The notes below the pieces were generated by a model. The model had not been told where the DNA came from. It saw nothing but the letters and a program-made list of their open reading frames with translations, and ran no database searches. From an uncultured Pelagibacteraceae bacterium (GTDB lineage Bacteria; Pseudomonadota; Alphaproteobacteria; Pelagibacterales; Pelagibacteraceae): a stretch of DNA of 64,000 bases. The stretch lies in contig CACKJD010000006.1 of the NCBI GenBank assembly GCA_902600485.1, positions 1 to 64,000 of the forward strand. The letters run 5' to 3'. This document shows, piece by piece, positions 3,824 to 11,107 of the stretch; positions within the stretch are counted from its first letter, which is position 1; every line of letters begins with the position of its first letter. The position numbers were made by a program, and so were the translations under genes.

Positions 3824-5491
3824 TTATAGTCCAAAAACTAATTTTTTTTCAATTTCTTTTTTTAACTTTTCTTCGGTATCTTCTAATTTTAAAACTCCAT
3901 TCCAAAAATATCTTGCCTGCACTTTTTTGTTAAGTCTCCATAATACATCACCGTAATGATCATTAACTATTGGATCGTAAGGCATAAGTTTTACAGCTTT
4001 TTCTAGATATTTTTTTGCGTTAACAAAGTCTTCGATTAAATAATAGGCCCATCCAATTGAGTCGGTAATGTAAGGGTCATTTTCTCTTAAACTATAAGCT
4101 TCCTTTAGCATATCCATTGCTTCAGGAATTTTGTAAGATCTCTCTAACCAGCTGTATCCAAGATAATTTAAGACATATGGTTCATCTGGATCTATTTTAA
4201 GAGACTCTATTAAATCTTCATCAGCTTTTAAAAAATCTTTTTTTCTTTCGTAACTAGTTCCTCTTTTATACAAAAGATCTGCATATTCCTCTGCACTATA
4301 ATTTGAGTATTGTATTAAATTTGAATAAATTTCTATTGCTCCCTCATAGTCTTGAAAATTTCTCAATATGTTTGCCATATCAAATAAAATCTTGTTTGAC
4401 GGGTTTTGAATTTTTCCATATTTTTTTTTAATAAATTTTAAAGCACTATCGTCATTTTTAGTCTCTTGGATAATTGATGCATTTTTTTTCACTTTAAACC
4501 AGTTATATATAACGTTATCTTTTTCAATGTTACTTAGTTCATTTTTTACTAATTTATATTTTTTTGTATCCATGTAGTTTTCAATTAGTAATGTCGAATT
4601 AAGCGTAAAATTTGGGTTAAGATATTTTGCTAAGATAATATAAAAATTTGATTCTTTATATAAACCTTGTGATGAATAAAGATTAGCGATTAAATAGAAA
4701 AACTCTGCAATAATATCTTTCTCATTTTTGCATGAAAATAAATTATTTAATTTGTTATAATTTTTTTCTTCAATCCATTTTACTGATTGAGCAATTAACA
4801 ATGGTTTATTAAGTTGATTAATATTTTGTAAAACCTGGTCTATTTTTTTAATTTTATTTTGTTCAATTAAATAATCTAAATAAAAATATATATATCTAGA
4901 GCTGCTTCCATCATATTCTATAAATTCTTCAAATCTTTTATCTGTATTTTTTAGATCAAAATAACAGCTTAAAAAAGCTAAGCTAATATCGTCTAATTCT
5001 GCAAAATTATTGTTTTTATAACTTTTAATATTATTACTTTTAAAAACCTCTAAATAGTTTTTTAAAACTTTTGACAATATAATATGGTATCTATCATCTG
5101 GGTCAATTAAGCTTTCAATTTTTTCTAAATTTGAACTACTTTTTTCTAAATTTTTATTTATTAAATTATCTACTAAAAGAATCACTTCTCTCTCTAAAAA
5201 AGAATAATTATTTTGTGAATATTTGATTTTCTTAATTGCCAAATCAACTTTTTCATTTGCAACCAGTGATTTTATATAATTTTTGAAATGTTCTTCGTGT
5301 CTGTCATTTAAGATCTTTGAATTTTCTAAGAATTTTAAGGAGTTTTTTGCATCATTATTATTGATAGAAAGCACTGCTGAAAAATAATTAGATAAATTTT
5401 TTTCATTAAACTTATTCACATCACTTACTTTAGAAAACGACGAAGTTTGATATATTAAAAAAATAACAAGAAAATAAATGTATTTATGCAT
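3824..5491 (-). CDS. exported tetratricopeptide-repeat protein
   Basis: This 555-residue protein starts with a short hydrophobic signal-like segment (about residues 2-19) and is then almost entirely helical. Clear TPR repeats occupy roughly residues 370-530, with typical A, G, Y and P positions in phrases such as YVLNYLGYSWLER and YITDSIGWAYYLIED. Such repeats are protein-protein interaction scaffolds. It probably acts in the periplasm or at the membrane, but the partner is unknown. It is followed by ispE on the same strand (22-base gap). Its start codon lies only 11 bases from that of the divergent uracil-DNA glycosylase gene. Confidence 0.8.
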   Translation of the reverse strand: MHKYIYFLVIFLIYQTSSFSKVSDVNKFNEKNLSNYFSAVLSINNNDAKNSLKFLENSKILNDRHEEHFKNYIKSLVANEKVDLAIKKIKYSQNNYSFLEREVILLVDNLINKNLEKSSSNLEKIESLIDPDDRYHIILSKVLKNYLEVFKSNNIKSYKNNNFAELDDISLAFLSCYFDLKNTDKRFEEFIEYDGSSSRYIYFYLDYLIEQNKIKKIDQVLQNINQLNKPLLIAQSVKWIEEKNYNKLNNLFSCKNEKDIIAEFFYLIANLYSSQGLYKESNFYIILAKYLNPNFTLNSTLLIENYMDTKKYKLVKNELSNIEKDNVIYNWFKVKKNASIIQETKNDDSALKFIKKKYGKIQNPSNKILFDMANILRNFQDYEGAIEIYSNLIQYSNYSAEEYADLLYKRGTSYERKKDFLKADEDLIESLKIDPDEPYVLNYLGYSWLERSYKIPEAMDMLKEAYSLRENDPYITDSIGWAYYLIEDFVNAKKYLEKAVKLMPYDPIVNDHYGDVLWRLNKKVQARYFWNGVLKLEDTEEKLKKEIEKKLVFGL

Positions 5492-5502
5492 ACATCAAAC
5501 AT

Positions 5503-6198
5503 ATGTCTAAAAATAATTTAAATCAAAGAAATAAAATAGAAGATTTTTTATTTAAAACGAAATTTGATTACGAAAATCAACCAATTAATAGATTAAAGAA
5601 AGTTGAAATAATTGAAAATAAACAAGAGTTATTAAAAAAACTAAAACTAAAAATCGAAAATTTGAAGGATTGTGAATTAAAAAACAATGCTAACAAAATT
5701 GTATTTAGCGATGGTAACGAAGAAAGTTCTGTAATGATCATAGGCGAAGGTCCAGGTCAAAAAGAAGATGAGCTAGGTAAACCGTTTGTGGGTGATGCGG
5801 GTATATTATTAAATAAAATGCTTGCAGCAATTAATTTAGACAGGAAAGATATTTATATTACAAATGTTGTTAATTACAGGCCTCCTTCAAACAGAAAACC
5901 TGAAATAAAAGAAATTAAAAGATATTCTGAATATTTATACGAACACGTTGAAATTATTAATCCAAAAATGATTATTCTACTTGGTAGTACAGCTATGGAA
6001 GCTTTTTTTGGATCAAATTTAAAAATATCAAAAGAAAGAGGTATTTGGAAAGAAATACTTATCAAAAATAAAACCTTTTTGACAATGATAACTTTTCATC
6101 CAGCATATTTACTAAGACAAGCTGATCAAAAAAAATATTCTTGGTTGGATTTAAAAGAAATAAGAAAGAAAATTGATGAACTTAAAATCGATATTTAA
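5503..6198 (+). CDS. uracil-DNA glycosylase, family 4-like
   Basis: The product removes uracil from DNA at the start of base excision repair. In 231 residues the motif GEGPGQKED (81-89) corresponds to the family-4 GEAPGxxED motif, followed by GKPFVGDAG and the C-terminal TFHPAYLLR (197-205). Classical family-4 enzymes bind a 4Fe-4S cluster through four cysteines. Here only Cys57 is seen at an expected position, and two others appear as Tyr125 (NYRPP) and Tyr141. The cluster is therefore probably absent, as I recall for other alphaproteobacterial members. It overlaps rnhB by 23 bases. Confidence 0.85.
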   Translation: MSKNNLNQRNKIEDFLFKTKFDYENQPINRLKKVEIIENKQELLKKLKLKIENLKDCELKNNANKIVFSDGNEESSVMIIGEGPGQKEDELGKPFVGDAGILLNKMLAAINLDRKDIYITNVVNYRPPSNRKPEIKEIKRYSEYLYEHVEIINPKMIILLGSTAMEAFFGSNLKISKERGIWKEILIKNKTFLTMITFHPAYLLRQADQKKYSWLDLKEIRKKIDELKIDI

Positions 6199-6772
6199 AG
6201 GTATTCAAAATATTGCGGGCGTAGATGAAGTGGGTAGAGGCAGTTTAATAGGACCAGTTTATGCATCTGCGGTTATATTAAAAAAAAACTGCGATGTTAA
6301 AAAATTGAAAGACTCAAAAAAATTAACAAAAAAAGAGCGTGAAGTTTTAAACAAATATATAAAAAAAAATTCGTATTGGTCTATCGGTTCTGCATCAAAA
6401 GAAGAGATAGAGAAACTAAACATTCTAAATGCCTCTTTGTTAGCCATGAAAAGAGCTATAAAAAAATTAAAAAAAAAACCTCATTTGGTTTTAGTTGATG
6501 GTAACAGAATTCCGGTCATGAAAAATTATAATCTAAAATATGTAATTAAGGGTGATCAAAAAATACCTCAAATCTCAGCAGCCTCAATTGTTGCTAAAGT
6601 TTCTAGGGACAGTTTGATGAAAAAAATATCAAAGAATTTTTCAAAATATCAATGGAATAAAAATTGTGGATATGGAACAAAAGTTCATATTCAAGCAATT
6701 CGAAAGTTTGGTGTCACAAAGCATCATAGAAGAACTTTCAAGCCTATACACAATATATTGAGTCCAAGATAA
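6176..6772 (+). CDS. rnhB: ribonuclease HII
   Basis: RNase HII cuts at ribonucleotides in DNA and in RNA/DNA hybrids. The catalytic DEVGRG motif sits at residues 17-22 (AGVDEVGRGSLIGP), with further acidic residues in LVDGNRIP and the SIVAKVSRD stretch. The length of 198 residues is usual. I chose the ATG at 6176; an in-frame TTG lies one codon upstream. It overlaps the glycosylase gene, so both genome-maintenance genes are probably translated from one transcript. A second RNase H gene (rnhA) occurs at 22 kb. Confidence 0.94.
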   Translation: MNLKSIFKGIQNIAGVDEVGRGSLIGPVYASAVILKKNCDVKKLKDSKKLTKKEREVLNKYIKKNSYWSIGSASKEEIEKLNILNASLLAMKRAIKKLKKKPHLVLVDGNRIPVMKNYNLKYVIKGDQKIPQISAASIVAKVSRDSLMKKISKNFSKYQWNKNCGYGTKVHIQAIRKFGVTKHHRRTFKPIHNILSPR

Positions 6773-6810
6773 TAATAAACACAATTAATTCAAAATAATT
6801 CAATCATGAG

Positions 6811-6840
6811 TTGACGTGGAGTCTTACCTAGAGTCTAATT
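6811..6840 (+). promoter_or_regulatory. ccrM promoter with two GANTC sites
   Basis: A sigma-70-like promoter is visible: TTGACG (6811-6816), a 17-base spacer and TCTAAT (6834-6839), just upstream of ccrM (start 6853). Two GAGTC sequences, matching the CcrM target GANTC, lie at 6819-6823 and 6831-6835, inside the spacer and over the -10 box. In Caulobacter, GANTC methylation in the ccrM leader is known to affect ccrM transcription. Direct autoregulation here is an inference. Confidence 0.6.
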
Positions 6841-6852
6841 ATCTTTTTAAAA

Positions 6853-7926
6853 ATGGAAAAGATAAACTTAAAAAATAAAATTATTAATGGGGACAGTCTT
6901 AAAGAGCTAAAAAAAATCCCTAAAGAAACTTTCGATTTAATCTTTGCAGACCCGCCTTACAATTTGCAATTAAAAAATCAACTCACTAGACCAGACAGAT
7001 CTAAAGTGAATGCAGTAAATGACAAATGGGATCAGTTTGAAAGCTTTAAAAAATACGATGACTTTACATATGCATGGCTTGATGAATGTAAAAGAATTTT
7101 AAAAAAAAATGGAGCTATTTGGGTAATTGGTAGTTATCACAATATTTTTAGAGTTGGAACAGCTATTCAAAATTTAGGCTTTTGGATATTAAATGATGTT
7201 ATATGGAATAAAAAAAATCCAATGCCTAATTTTAGAGGAACAAGATTTACTAATGCCCATGAAACTTTAATTTGGGCATCGAAATCTGAAAATTCTAAAT
7301 ACACTTTCAACTACCAATCTTTAAAATGTTTAAATGACGATCTTCAAATGAGATCTAACTGGGAATTGCCGATTTGTAATGGTTCTGAAAGACTAAAAAA
7401 GAATGGTAAAAAAGTGCATTCTACCCAAAAACCTGAGGCTCTACTTCACAGAATTTTATTAGCAACAACAAATAAAAATGATTTTGTTTTAGATCCTTTT
7501 TTAGGATCAGGAACAACGGCAACAGTTGCTAAGAAATTGGGAAGAAATTATTATGGTATTGAAAAAGAAAAAACCTATTTTAAAGCAGCTGAGCAAAGAT
7601 TAAAAAAAACAAAACCTATAGAAGATGATTATTTAGATACTCTTCAAAATGGAAGATCTAAACCAAGAATACCTTTTGGCTCATTAGTTGAGTTAGGAAT
7701 AATTAAACCAGGAACTACTATATACGATAATAAAAAGAAAATTAGTGCAAAAATAATGGCTGATGGGAGTATTAAGCATGAACTAACAGAGGGTTCAATT
7801 CACAAAGTAGCAGCCACAATTTTAGGAGCTGAAAGCTGCAATGGTTGGACTTTTTGGCACTACAATCTTAACGGTAACATTGTACCTATTGACCACTTAA
7901 GACAAAAACTAATATCTAGTAATTAA
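6853..7926 (+). CDS. ccrM: cell cycle-regulated adenine DNA methyltransferase (GANTC)
   Basis: CcrM methylates adenine in GANTC and couples gene expression to the replication cycle in alphaproteobacteria. It is a beta-class methyltransferase: the catalytic DPPYNLQL motif comes first (residues 33-40) and the SAM-binding DPFLGSGTTA comes later (about 215-224). The C-terminal part (about 262-355, with LVELGIIKPGTTIYD and CNGWTFWHYN) is the RAMA-like domain typical of CcrM. The 357-residue length matches the family. It stands alone behind its own promoter, and its end overlaps the convergent monooxygenase gene by 4 bases. Confidence 0.95.
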   Translation: MEKINLKNKIINGDSLKELKKIPKETFDLIFADPPYNLQLKNQLTRPDRSKVNAVNDKWDQFESFKKYDDFTYAWLDECKRILKKNGAIWVIGSYHNIFRVGTAIQNLGFWILNDVIWNKKNPMPNFRGTRFTNAHETLIWASKSENSKYTFNYQSLKCLNDDLQMRSNWELPICNGSERLKKNGKKVHSTQKPEALLHRILLATTNKNDFVLDPFLGSGTTATVAKKLGRNYYGIEKEKTYFKAAEQRLKKTKPIEDDYLDTLQNGRSKPRIPFGSLVELGIIKPGTTIYDNKKKISAKIMADGSIKHELTEGSIHKVAATILGAESCNGWTFWHYNLNGNIVPIDHLRQKLISSN

Positions 7927-9068
7927 GTTTTATAAATTCTACCTAAATAATATTCTAGAAATTTTTTATTTTTTACTAATCTTTTTAGGAAAATATTTCT
8001 GAAAAATATTATTAAAGGATTTGATAAATGAAAAGCAAACAAGTTAAATTTTGATCTAAAATTAATCATTTTTAATTTATTTGCTCTCTTTTTGAAAAAA
8101 TTGATTTCTTTATCGGTATTTAAAGACATAAACAATTCATAAGCACTCTCAATCGATTGCGATGCACCTTGTGCAAATGATGGTGGAAAGGCAAAAAAGG
8201 CATCACCTATCAAATGAATATTATTATTCTTTATTTTGAGAAACTCATCACTAACAAACACTGGAAATATTTTTAATTCCTTAATGCCTGTAACAAATTC
8301 TTTAATTTCTTGAGGGACTTTTTCTAAAATTCTTTTGATAAAGGAATTTTCACTAAATAATGAATAATTACCTTGCTCCTCTAATGAAAGAGAATGTTTC
8401 ATAATAGCAATAAAATTTAAATCACCATTAGAATTTAATGGGTAAATAACATGGTGGAAGTTTGGACCTAAAAACAAAGCTACATTTTTTTTGTTCACGT
8501 TTTCAGGAAATTTAGTTAATTTACCTCTAATAGCTAATGTGTCATTATATTTTGGTTTTACTTTGTTATTTGAAATTAGATTTTTACTTTTTGAAAAAAC
8601 TCCATCAGCGATAATCAAGTAATCACATTCTTTAGTTACATTATTTTCAAATGAAATTTTAATTTGTTTTTCTTTGTCATTTATTTTTGAAATTTTAAAA
8701 CCAGTTTTTATTATATCACCCAAATCTTTTTTTAAAAAATTTATTAAAGTTGATCTTTTTAGTGTTGTATACTTGATGTCAGCTGTATTGAAATTCGTAA
8801 TATCTAGATCACAGATTTTATTTGATGAATTCATTGAAAAAAAATCAATTTTTTCAGGATTAAATTTTTCATTATCAGATAATTTATTAAACCCAATTTT
8901 ATTCAAAAGCTTAACGCTATTGACTGAAAGTTGAATACCGTAGCCGTCCTCTGAATTAATAGTGTCGTTTTTTTCATAAATTGTAATTTCATAATTTAAA
9001 CTATTTTTAAAAAGATTGGCGATGTACAAACCTGAGATACCTGCTCCAATTATCGCAATTTTTTTCAT
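7923..9068 (-). CDS. FAD-dependent aromatic-ring monooxygenase-like protein
   Basis: This is a 381-residue flavoprotein of the UbiH/salicylate hydroxylase superfamily. The N-terminal Rossmann motif is GAGISG (residues 8-13), a YGIQLSVNSVK segment follows, and the second FAD-contact motif GDAFFAFPPSFAQGASQS lies at about 285-302. Such enzymes hydroxylate aromatic rings using NAD(P)H and O2. A role in ubiquinone ring hydroxylation or catabolism of an aromatic compound is possible, but the substrate cannot be read from the sequence. Its start abuts the mutY stop. Confidence 0.75.
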   Translation of the reverse strand: MKKIAIIGAGISGLYIANLFKNSLNYEITIYEKNDTINSEDGYGIQLSVNSVKLLNKIGFNKLSDNEKFNPEKIDFFSMNSSNKICDLDITNFNTADIKYTTLKRSTLINFLKKDLGDIIKTGFKISKINDKEKQIKISFENNVTKECDYLIIADGVFSKSKNLISNNKVKPKYNDTLAIRGKLTKFPENVNKKNVALFLGPNFHHVIYPLNSNGDLNFIAIMKHSLSLEEQGNYSLFSENSFIKRILEKVPQEIKEFVTGIKELKIFPVFVSDEFLKIKNNNIHLIGDAFFAFPPSFAQGASQSIESAYELFMSLNTDKEINFFKKRANKLKMINFRSKFNLFAFHLSNPLIIFFRNIFLKRLVKNKKFLEYYLGRIYKT

Positions 9069-10048
9069 TAATTTTTCTCGAGATATTTAACTACTTTTTT
9101 AGTGAATGTTGGCAACATGTAATTATTTATTTTTCTTTGATCAATCCAAGTAGATGATGAATATTTATTGATATTTTTTAAATGAAGTATTTTTATATTC
9201 ATATTCATATTAGACAATTTAATATTAAGACTTTTATTAAATTTTTTAGGATTATGTAGTTCTTTCATGGGAAAAATTCTTAGGTTTTTTAAAAAATTAA
9301 ATTTAGTATTTTTTATTAATAAATATTTTTGATCTTTTTTATAAACTTTGAGTAAAAAATATTTGTCTTTATATTTTTTTGAATTTTTTGTTAAATTAAA
9401 GTCTTTCTTTTTAAAAGATTTGCATTTTTTAGTTATAGGACATTGGCAGCAAAGTGGGTTGGTAGGTTTGCAAACTAAAGCACCAAATTCCATAAGTGCC
9501 TGAGCATAATCACTTGAACGGTTTGAAAATCCTAAAATAGACTTTTTTTCAATTAAATTTTCTTTCTGAATTTCTTTTTCTTTTTTTAAATAAAGGTATC
9601 TTTTTATAATCCTTTCTACATTACCATCTAGTGGAATATATGGCTTATTAAATGCAATAGCTAAAATTGCATTAGCAGTATAATCTCCAATACCAGATAG
9701 TGATTTCAAATCGTCAAAATTATCAGGTATTACTCCATTAAAATTTTTGATTACTGACTGCGCTGCTTTCTTTAAGTTTCTTGCTCTTGAATAATATCCA
9801 AGACCTTCCCAAAGTTTAATTAGTTTTTTGTTATCAACACTTGCAAGTTTTTTTATGTTTGGAATTTCTTTAACAAATTTGTTAAAGTATGGAATTACGG
9901 TTGCTACTTGAGTTTGTTGCAACATAAATTCACTAATTAACGTATTATACTGCCTTTTTTCTTTAGATACATTTTTTCGCCATGGTAATGATCTTTTATT
10001 TAAATCGTACCATTTCAGAATATTTTTTGTTACAAATGGATTTCTCAT
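9068..10048 (-). CDS. mutY: A/G-specific adenine glycosylase MutY
   Basis: MutY excises adenine mispaired with 8-oxoguanine. The 326-residue protein shows the catalytic Glu40 in LISEFMLQQTQ, a helix-hairpin-helix LSGIGDYTANAILA (about 117-130), the catalytic Asp141 in PLDGNVERI, and a complete 4Fe-4S ligand set C193-X6-C200-X2-C203-X5-C209. A NUDIX-like C-terminal domain follows. The chosen start gives the usual short lead before WYDLNKRSLPW. The start codon directly abuts the ATG of the divergent DUF721 gene. Confidence 0.95.
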   Translation of the reverse strand: MRNPFVTKNILKWYDLNKRSLPWRKNVSKEKRQYNTLISEFMLQQTQVATVIPYFNKFVKEIPNIKKLASVDNKKLIKLWEGLGYYSRARNLKKAAQSVIKNFNGVIPDNFDDLKSLSGIGDYTANAILAIAFNKPYIPLDGNVERIIKRYLYLKKEKEIQKENLIEKKSILGFSNRSSDYAQALMEFGALVCKPTNPLCCQCPITKKCKSFKKKDFNLTKNSKKYKDKYFLLKVYKKDQKYLLIKNTKFNFLKNLRIFPMKELHNPKKFNKSLNIKLSNMNMNIKILHLKNINKYSSSTWIDQRKINNYMLPTFTKKVVKYLEKN

Positions 10049-10525
10049 ATGCAGTTTAAAAAATATACTAAGCAGAGATCAGGGGGCATTCAAGGTCTAA
10101 GATCTTTTAAAGACACTTTGCCCACAAAAGTAAAAAAAATCATAAATAAAAAAGGCAGTATATTTCCTGAAATATTAAATAATTGGAAATATATAGTAGG
10201 TAAAGAATTATTCGATATTTGTTATCCAAACAAATTTAAGAGTTCAAACAAAGTAAGAAGATCGACATTAGAAATTATGGTCAATAGAGGTAGTGAAGTA
10301 AATGTAGAGTATTCTAAAAAACAAATTATGAATAAATTAAATTCAATTTTTGGTTATGTGGCGGTCGATAAAATAAAGATAATAACCTTTGAAAAAAATG
10401 AGAAAATTAATCTAGAAAAAAGTAAAAGTGCGTCAAAAAGAGATTTCTCAAAAAGCTTGAACGGCATTAAAAATGTAAATATTAAAAATGCTCTTAAAGA
10501 ATTAATTAATTCATATAAAAAATAA
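10049..10525 (+). CDS. DUF721 / DciA-like protein
   Basis: The 158-residue protein matches the DUF721 pattern: a short basic N-terminus, then NNWKYIVGKELFDICYP (about residues 45-61), a beta segment STLEIMVNRGSEVNVEY, and helices ending in LNSIFGYVAVDKIKI. DciA members load or assist the replicative helicase DnaB in bacteria lacking DnaC, so a replication role is plausible but inferred. It lies in a mutY-DUF721-dsbA-smc group close to ccrM and rnhB, a neighbourhood I recall from other alphaproteobacteria. The ATG touches the mutY start codon. Confidence 0.75.
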   Translation: MQFKKYTKQRSGGIQGLRSFKDTLPTKVKKIINKKGSIFPEILNNWKYIVGKELFDICYPNKFKSSNKVRRSTLEIMVNRGSEVNVEYSKKQIMNKLNSIFGYVAVDKIKIITFEKNEKINLEKSKSASKRDFSKSLNGIKNVNIKNALKELINSYKK

Positions 10526-11107
10526 ATGAAAAAAATAAAAACTATATTATTGTTTATGTTTATTGCATTGTCTAATCCGTCTTATGCTGAAACAATTAAG
10601 CCAATAATTGACGGTAATAATAATGCAAAGATAAAACTTATAGTTTATGAGTCTTTAACATGTTCTTATTGTGCAAACTTTCATAAGAATGTTTATCCAG
10701 AATTAAAGAAAAATTTTATTGATAAGGGAATTATATCAATTGAATATAAAAGTTTTCCATTAAATATTGCGGCTTTAAATGCTTCAAAGTTTGCACATTG
10801 TGAGAACAAAGGAAATTCTGAATTGCTTCACTTTTTATATGATAATCAGAACGAATGGGCAAAAGGTTCGACAGCTGAGGAATATAATAAAAATCTAATC
10901 AAAGTTATTAAATCTGGAAACTTTAAAATTGACGAGCAAAAATGCTTGGAGAATAAGTCGTTAGAGGATCATATACTTAACGACCGAATCGAGGGAGTAA
11001 AAAGTTTTAACATAAACTCAACCCCTACTCTATTAATAAATGGGAAAAAGTTCGAAAAATCACTTACATACAAAAATTTGAAAAAAGCTATAGAAAAACT
11101 ATTATAG
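10526..11107 (+). CDS. DsbA-like periplasmic thiol oxidoreductase
   Basis: An N-terminal signal peptide (about residues 1-21, ending SYA) precedes a thioredoxin-fold domain with the active-site motif C46-S-Y-C49. A cis-proline region STPTLLING lies near residue 168. DsbA-family proteins form or isomerise disulfides in exported proteins. The protein has 193 residues. It starts immediately after the DUF721 gene and lies 6 bases before smc, so it is probably in one operon. Whether it works as an oxidase or a reductase depends on partners not seen here. Confidence 0.88.
   Translation: MKKIKTILLFMFIALSNPSYAETIKPIIDGNNNAKIKLIVYESLTCSYCANFHKNVYPELKKNFIDKGIISIEYKSFPLNIAALNASKFAHCENKGNSELLHFLYDNQNEWAKGSTAEEYNKNLIKVIKSGNFKIDEQKCLENKSLEDHILNDRIEGVKSFNINSTPTLLINGKKFEKSLTYKNLKKAIEKLL

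Follow-up and report, generated by a model that had tools for sequence, protein, structure and literature searches.

SAR11 bacteria rank with the most numerous cells of the ocean, and the locus described here bears on what times CcrM in bacteria that lack CtrA, SAR11 among them: could transcription of the methylase gene be governed by methylation of sites in its own promoter? The window, by which the whole analysed stretch of 64,000 nucleotides of pelagibacterial DNA is meant, carries at 6853-7926 (+) an ORF of 357 aa for a CcrM-type adenine methyltransferase of the GANTC type, the product of which matches both N6_N4_Mtase (PF01555, E 2.7e-69) and RAMA (PF18755, E 5.2e-18) in Pfam. It is the single match in the 1.09 Mb assembly, and among the 80 related loci the top-ranking named records, L002-L037, show 86-93% identity and are titled Pelagibacteraceae or Candidatus Pelagibacter, which marks the window as SAR11 DNA. 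Between the end of rnhB (6772) and the ATG of ccrM (6853) lies a gap of 80 bp, in which the initial annotation had pointed out two GAGTC sites ahead of the gene; the observation is right (Table 1) and was even understated. No terminator-like site was found in 5800-8100, so that read-through from rnhB into ccrM is possible. In the same neighbourhood, two divergent ORFs at 5491-5503, which read as a TPR-like protein (-) and a member of the uracil-DNA glycosylase superfamily (+), stand 11 bases apart, a spacing that leaves almost no promoter room.

Table 1. Elements of the gap ahead of ccrM, in window coordinates.
Feature	Coordinates	Strand	Basis and remarks
-35 element TTGACG	6811..6816	+	Read from sequence; TTGAC in 53/53 type-A SAR11 rows, which were chosen for having it
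CcrM site 1 GAGTC	6819..6823	+	Between -35 and -10, at offset 8 counted from TTGAC; intact in 47/53 type-A rows, in two registers
CcrM site 2 GAGTC	6831..6835	+	Offset 20; its TC also begins the presumed -10
Presumed -10 TCTAAT	6834..6839	+	Spacer of 17 from the -35; without A at -11; exact register unproven
Second conserved element TTCAA-N7-TTGA	6799..6814	+	TTCAATC at 6799-6805; overlaps the -35; possible operator

A promoter of the form TTGACG-N17-TCTAAT had also been proposed for this gap. Its letters and its spacer stand; the strength attributed to it does not, TCTAAT having C where A(-11) is expected. A promoter scanner that requires A at position 2 of the -10 leaves the ccrM promoter out of its list, and the same scan across the region returned 11 promoter sites against 11.6 in shuffles. 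If the transcript starts about 7 nt after TCTAAT, the GANTC sites of the predicted ccrM promoter would fall within -40 to +40, the interval used as a criterion in PMC7987155. Read in this way, the ccrM leader in the window would be about 7 nt long, with no obvious ribosome site; in the g4 upstreams (L123, L129 and L131-L133) the presumed -10 stands so near the ATG that ccrM would be transcribed without a leader.

Taken alone, the GANTC pair is mildly unusual, and it is conservation that is decisive. The window is poor in GANTC, with 80 sites where shuffles average 161; the density is 2.43/kb between ORFs and 1.19/kb inside them (ORFs of at least 100 aa), and the probability of finding at least two sites in a gap of 80 nt is 0.017 at the intergenic density and 0.0047 at that of the window. 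Since one more intergenic gap in the window holds two GANTC and five more close pairs (8-16 bp apart) occur there, a pair of this rarity (P about 0.005-0.017) proves little by itself, and this much can be said for a chance origin. Depletion is more pronounced in ccrM ORFs of SAR11 (n=65), which contain a mean of 0.72 GANTC against 3.07 in synonymous shuffles and are more strongly depleted than the coding DNA of the window (ratio 0.56). Beyond the promoter, 3.8 kb of the window (6836-10648), the whole ccrM ORF included, is free of GANTC.

Conservation was followed through 63 SAR11 loci, comprising the window and L002-L063, of which L062 is titled only as an alphaproteobacterium. GANTC is not missing from the orthologous gaps, an absence that the initial annotation had named as fatal to its idea: at least one core GANTC is present in 60 of the 63 loci and two are present in 51 (36 nt from TTGAC), the loci with none being L059, L060 and L063. 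From these, 53 type-A rows were picked by TTGAC, at least three of the four letters of site 2, and TA (layout TTGAC-N15-site 2-TA). Site 2, on which the choice of rows partly rested, is intact in 52 of the 53, its N is always G and it is followed by TAAT in nearly all of them, so that site 2 alone could be kept as promoter sequence in the window's genus. Counted from the first T of TTGAC, site 1 begins at +8 in 16 rows and at +9 in 31, a register that switched four times on the ccrM tree (a quick tree with 20 of its 62 inner branches open), and all four bases occur at its N among relatives. Its fixed letters changed 3 times over 8 columns, whereas 22 other spacer columns together account for 54 changes, with a P of 3e-5 that treats columns as exchangeable; the register analysis omits three of the 53 rows (L053, L054 and L056, with no assignable first site), which slightly favours conservation.

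Beyond these loci, an order-wide set of 80 upstreams was assembled from 40 of 272 matching genomes, chosen along the ranking and thus non-randomly, and from 40 of 51 genomes of a second search; it overlaps with the 63-locus set, and the two counts are not to be added. At least one core GANTC is found in 74 of these 80 genomes (73 by script, and G203 by eye), the remaining six being all four g9 genomes and two of the four g12 genomes, and in some lineages the core sites are dispensable. Registers vary among other genera (9 + 25; 20 alone; 9 alone; 10 or 8 alone), and a second family of the order has offsets of 8 + 19, or 19 alone. Altogether, these comparisons argue that CcrM's own recognition site lies inside the predicted ccrM promoter and is maintained there by selection.

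The placement is no peculiarity of streamlined genomes, as a related geometry occurs in alphaproteobacteria with genomes of up to 6.5 Mb (G446). The survey outside SAR11 covered 64 alphaproteobacterial ccrM upstreams, made up of the loci L191-L219 except L213, which lacked an anchor (28 of 29), 16 non-SAR11 loci among L064-L081 and 20 further ones; the class search yielded 66 genomes with a ccrM match, the own genome included, with lower-ranked and weak ones left out. TTGAC with both sites, that is, GANTC at +8-10 and at +19-20, is a minority arrangement there, present in 21 of the 64, with a single site in 11 others and hence at least one in 32/64. Dinucleotide shuffles of the 64 upstreams gave a mean of 0.005 double-site loci (maximum 1), and each of seven controls with displaced offsets gave 0 loci. 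The distances from TTGAC to GANTC peak at 8 (14), 9 (7), 10 (6), 19 (23) and 20 (3), with zero GANTC at 11-18 and 21-24 and with smaller peaks at -32 (8), -15 (10) and +2 (8; partly self-overlapping TTGACTC). The 16 double-site rows from the class search represent, going by their codes, 16 different families, the other five being named records that include Novosphingobium and Altererythrobacter. Site 2 occurs in 26 non-SAR11 rows, where A follows it in 26/26 and T stands at +9 in 23/26; the predicted -10 outside SAR11 is accordingly of the form CAnnnT, with its C supplied by GANTC and a spacer of 17 bp (18 at offset 20). An earlier survey of non-SAR11 upstreams (43 of 45 loci analysed), made with crude start choices and superseded by that of the 64 stretches, had found GANTC within 150 bp in 36 loci, at 19.2/kb upstream against 2.35/kb in whole loci.

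The second SAR11 family fits this wider alphaproteobacterial geometry. In the window's genus, site 2 lies one base further and is followed by T rather than A, which makes its layout look like a derived form of the wider one. That many of the distant relatives, though not all, have the sites at almost the same places as SAR11 suggests an old self-timing circuit.

Whole genomes were searched for the pattern as well. TTGAC-N15-GANTCTA has one occurrence in the own genome, at ccrM, and its reversed control has 0; over 31 genomes of the genus it matches in 25, 33 times in total where the control matches 8 times, and the ccrM type GAGTCTA makes up 24 of the 33, with the coordinates at ccrM checked for G000, G078, G186 and G280 only. 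Across 76 genomes of the class, TTGACN{3,5}GANTCN{4,6}GANTC gave 43 matches, 15 of them just upstream of ccrM by coordinates, against 5 for the reversed control, and since the 28 matches away from ccrM exceed the control as well, that control is a weak one. Two candidates for a wider regulon were rejected in the own genome: GANTCTAAT is not enriched (43 matches against 44 for the reversed control), and TTGAC-N2-5-GANTC falls below its control (10 against 16).

The positions of the sites can thus be taken, on their pattern of conservation, as real and kept by selection, and methylation feedback on ccrM appears likely. We lean towards reading the ccrM gap as a methylation-gated core promoter that is on when hemimethylated, with GcrA-sigma70 as its most likely reader. 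RNA polymerase with the housekeeping sigma would bind TTGAC and the weak -10; the two GANTC, one in the spacer and the other at the upstream -10 edge, roughly a helical turn away, would receive CcrM's own m6A marks, and these would change promoter activity; replication would leave both sites hemimethylated until CcrM later restored full methylation; and, were the hemimethylated promoter on and the fully methylated one low, each passage of the fork would be followed by a self-ending pulse of CcrM, thereby coupling ccrM transcription to replication.

The components of this proposal differ in strength. That methylation alters ccrM transcription is probable; GcrA would be a slightly favoured candidate for the reader at the SAR11 ccrM promoter; and the direction, with hemimethylated DNA on and fully methylated DNA off or low, is an evenly balanced guess by analogy. 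That direction was chosen from two sets of results: at ctrAP1, GcrA covers -35 to +7 on fully methylated DNA and about 12 nt by the site if methylation is confined to the plus strand, and the authors suggest that full methylation may restrain polymerase (PMC3667746), and ccrM is transcribed solely off the hemimethylated chromosome (PMC2217572). In addition, methylation is described as 'most probably' acting on ccrM itself (PMC3973325), the Caulobacter start sites that carry GANTC between -35 and -10 belong to a single cell-cycle cluster (PMC4287350), and GANTC in Pelagibacter is methylated, with an ori-ter gradient (PMC9516812). Caulobacter ftsZ points in the opposite direction, with peak activity when fully methylated (PMC3708114), and an opposite sign, full methylation being on, is quite possible by the same kind of analogy.

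With regard to the reader, GcrA is encoded in the own genome (PF07750, E 8.4e-38), and both the N- and the C-terminal domain of this 162-aa protein (L190) align with solved Caulobacter-type GcrA chains (7ye1, 5yiu and 5yix). It is found in 128 of 147 genomes of the family and in 52 of the 54 near-complete ones. The Pfam GcrA model also exceeds its cut-off in a control genome, that of the archaeon Sulfolobus acidocaldarius. The expected correlation between GcrA and the geometry is absent: in 48 genomes the double site occurs in 15 of 38 with GcrA and in 3 of 10 without it (Fisher 0.72, with offsets widened to 7-10 and 18-20 and with G396, a sub-cut-off match, counted as without GcrA), a result that speaks against GcrA as an obligatory reader, although some GcrA genes may be hidden in draft assemblies. 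One or two core GANTC at ccrM are present in L230 (G461), L223 (G438), L224 (G454) and L202 (G424), where no GcrA match was obtained. Furthermore, the window sites depart from YGAKTCK, the extended motif of Caulobacter, which is not seen in Brevundimonas (PMC7987155): they read G-GAGTC-T and A-GAGTC-T, with a mismatch at the first base, and outside SAR11 site 2 is preceded by Y in 24/26 but followed by A in 26/26.

As for CtrA, the four response regulators of the own assembly (95.8% complete) were compared with their models, none passing that of CtrA. PhoB and ActR/PrrA/RegA pass their own models, PhoB also scoring 136.5 bits against the model for CtrA, which has a cut-off of 350; the third regulator is best matched by NtrX, at 539.6 bits and below the cut-off of 600; and the fourth is OmpR-type, below every cut-off shown. 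The ORF adjoining the NtrX-like regulator reads like an NtrY kinase. Together with Brilli 2010, which reports no ctrA in Pelagibacter (PMC2877005), this makes the CtrA input that drives Caulobacter ccrM appear to be missing.

Among the alternatives, positive feedback survives best: hemi- or full methylation would recruit GcrA-sigma70 and turn ccrM on, making the methylated state self-maintaining as an epigenetic memory. Such a loop would agree with the preference of GcrA for fully methylated over hemimethylated over unmethylated DNA (PMC3667746), with the order un < hemi < full at the Caulobacter ftsZ promoter (PMC3708114), with a synthetic CcrM circuit of this logic that works in E. coli (PMC5458116) and with the weak -10, which would suit activation through sigma region 2 (PMC7403470). 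It conflicts with the hemimethylated-only activity of the ccrM precedent (PMC2217572) and draws no support from the GcrA counts (Fisher 0.72), and a self-sustaining loop would, as a matter of argument, risk irreversible loss; we regard it as unlikely.

A further possibility is that the letters are kept as promoter or operator sequence for a methylation-blind factor. Site 2 would suit this, being GAGTCTAAT with a fixed N in the window's genus, as would the conserved TTCAA-N7-TTGA that overlaps the -35, in which columns -12 to -6 (TTCAATC) show 0-2 changes each in type-A rows, compared with 17 in column -5 and 10 in column -4. Site 1, however, retains GA and TC while its N, flanks and register vary, and GANTC with other N occurs in distant lineages, which leaves this reading rather improbable. 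TTCAA-N7-TTGA was itself rejected as a ccrM-specific operator, being frequent genome-wide (in the own genome 59 matches, with 42 for the control) and at or above its control in 9/9 genomes tested. A similar inverted repeat, GATTCAA-N7-TTGAATC, with GANTC at each end, lies elsewhere in the promoter of g4 (L123, L129 and L131-L133); another, TTCAACGTAAAGTTGAA, is carried by g3 promoters, and g8 differs from it by one letter. NtrX, for which sites of the forms CAAN3-5TTG and GCAN9TGC have been described (PMC9223101), is a possible binder of TTCAA-N7-TTGA, as a lead only.

Somewhat less credence still is due to the idea that CcrM protein acts as a repressor, occupying the two sites and blocking polymerase, so that occupancy and not the methyl mark would give the feedback. 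The sites do lie within the expected polymerase footprint and CcrM is dimeric on its site (PMC6787082), but stable repression would arguably be hard to achieve with an enzyme that departs once it has reacted, and the present data do not separate this idea from the methyl-mark model. Chance or shared ancestry only, perhaps with ccrM read through from rnhB as the terminator-free 5800-8100 would allow, is very improbable and for the site positions strongly disfavoured, in view of the 21/64 double-site loci against a shuffle mean of 0.005, the 0 loci in seven displaced controls and motif letters that hardly change where spacer letters do.

The methylation-gated core promoter remains the preferred reading, and a wider form of it can be put forward tentatively: paired GANTC one turn apart in the ccrM core promoter may be an ancestral alphaproteobacterial cis-element, a CtrA-independent and replication-coupled self-timer, in which RNA polymerase itself would read m6A at the -10 edge where GcrA is not detectable. 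If true, this would amount to an old and compact epigenetic feedback element common to many alphaproteobacterial families, and the recurrent two-site geometry in the promoter of the very enzyme that writes the mark offers a concrete, testable circuit.

Several known systems invite comparison. In the CfrBI restriction-modification system the methylase promoter reportedly carries its own recognition site; systems of this type share that feature with the present locus, where CcrM is instead a cell-cycle methylase and the geometry extends across many families. The GcrA-sigma70 promoters of Caulobacter (ctrA P1, mipZ and podJ; ftsZ and mipZ for CcrM) likewise have GANTC in or next to the core promoter, with activity that depends on methylation state (PMC3667746, PMC4287350, PMC3708114), and GcrA with both domains is also encoded in the SAR11 genome; unlike in those promoters, the gene here is the methylase itself, the two sites stand about one turn apart in a recurrent geometry, YGAKTCK is not matched and the geometry does not track GcrA. 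Caulobacter ccrM, under CtrA on hemimethylated DNA, is similarly proposed to depend on methylation of its own region (PMC2217572, PMC3973325), whereas here no CtrA was found in the assembly and the sites lie in the predicted core promoter. In the synthetic memory circuit built in E. coli, ccrM is likewise driven from a promoter region with GANTC that CcrM methylates, with the difference that an artificial zinc finger serves as reader and that the feedback is positive by design (PMC5458116). The closest published work, Brilli 2010, took GANTC counts over windows of 500 bp at cell-cycle genes, its conclusion being that no control by methylation could be derived from them (PMC2877005). No account of paired GANTC at fixed positions of the ccrM promoter was found in the literature searched, which mostly excluded subscription papers that may describe it. 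Relative to these systems, the locus would be a methylation-sensitive promoter of a known type that here serves the gene of the methylase itself, and its geometry is met again in many families of alphaproteobacteria.
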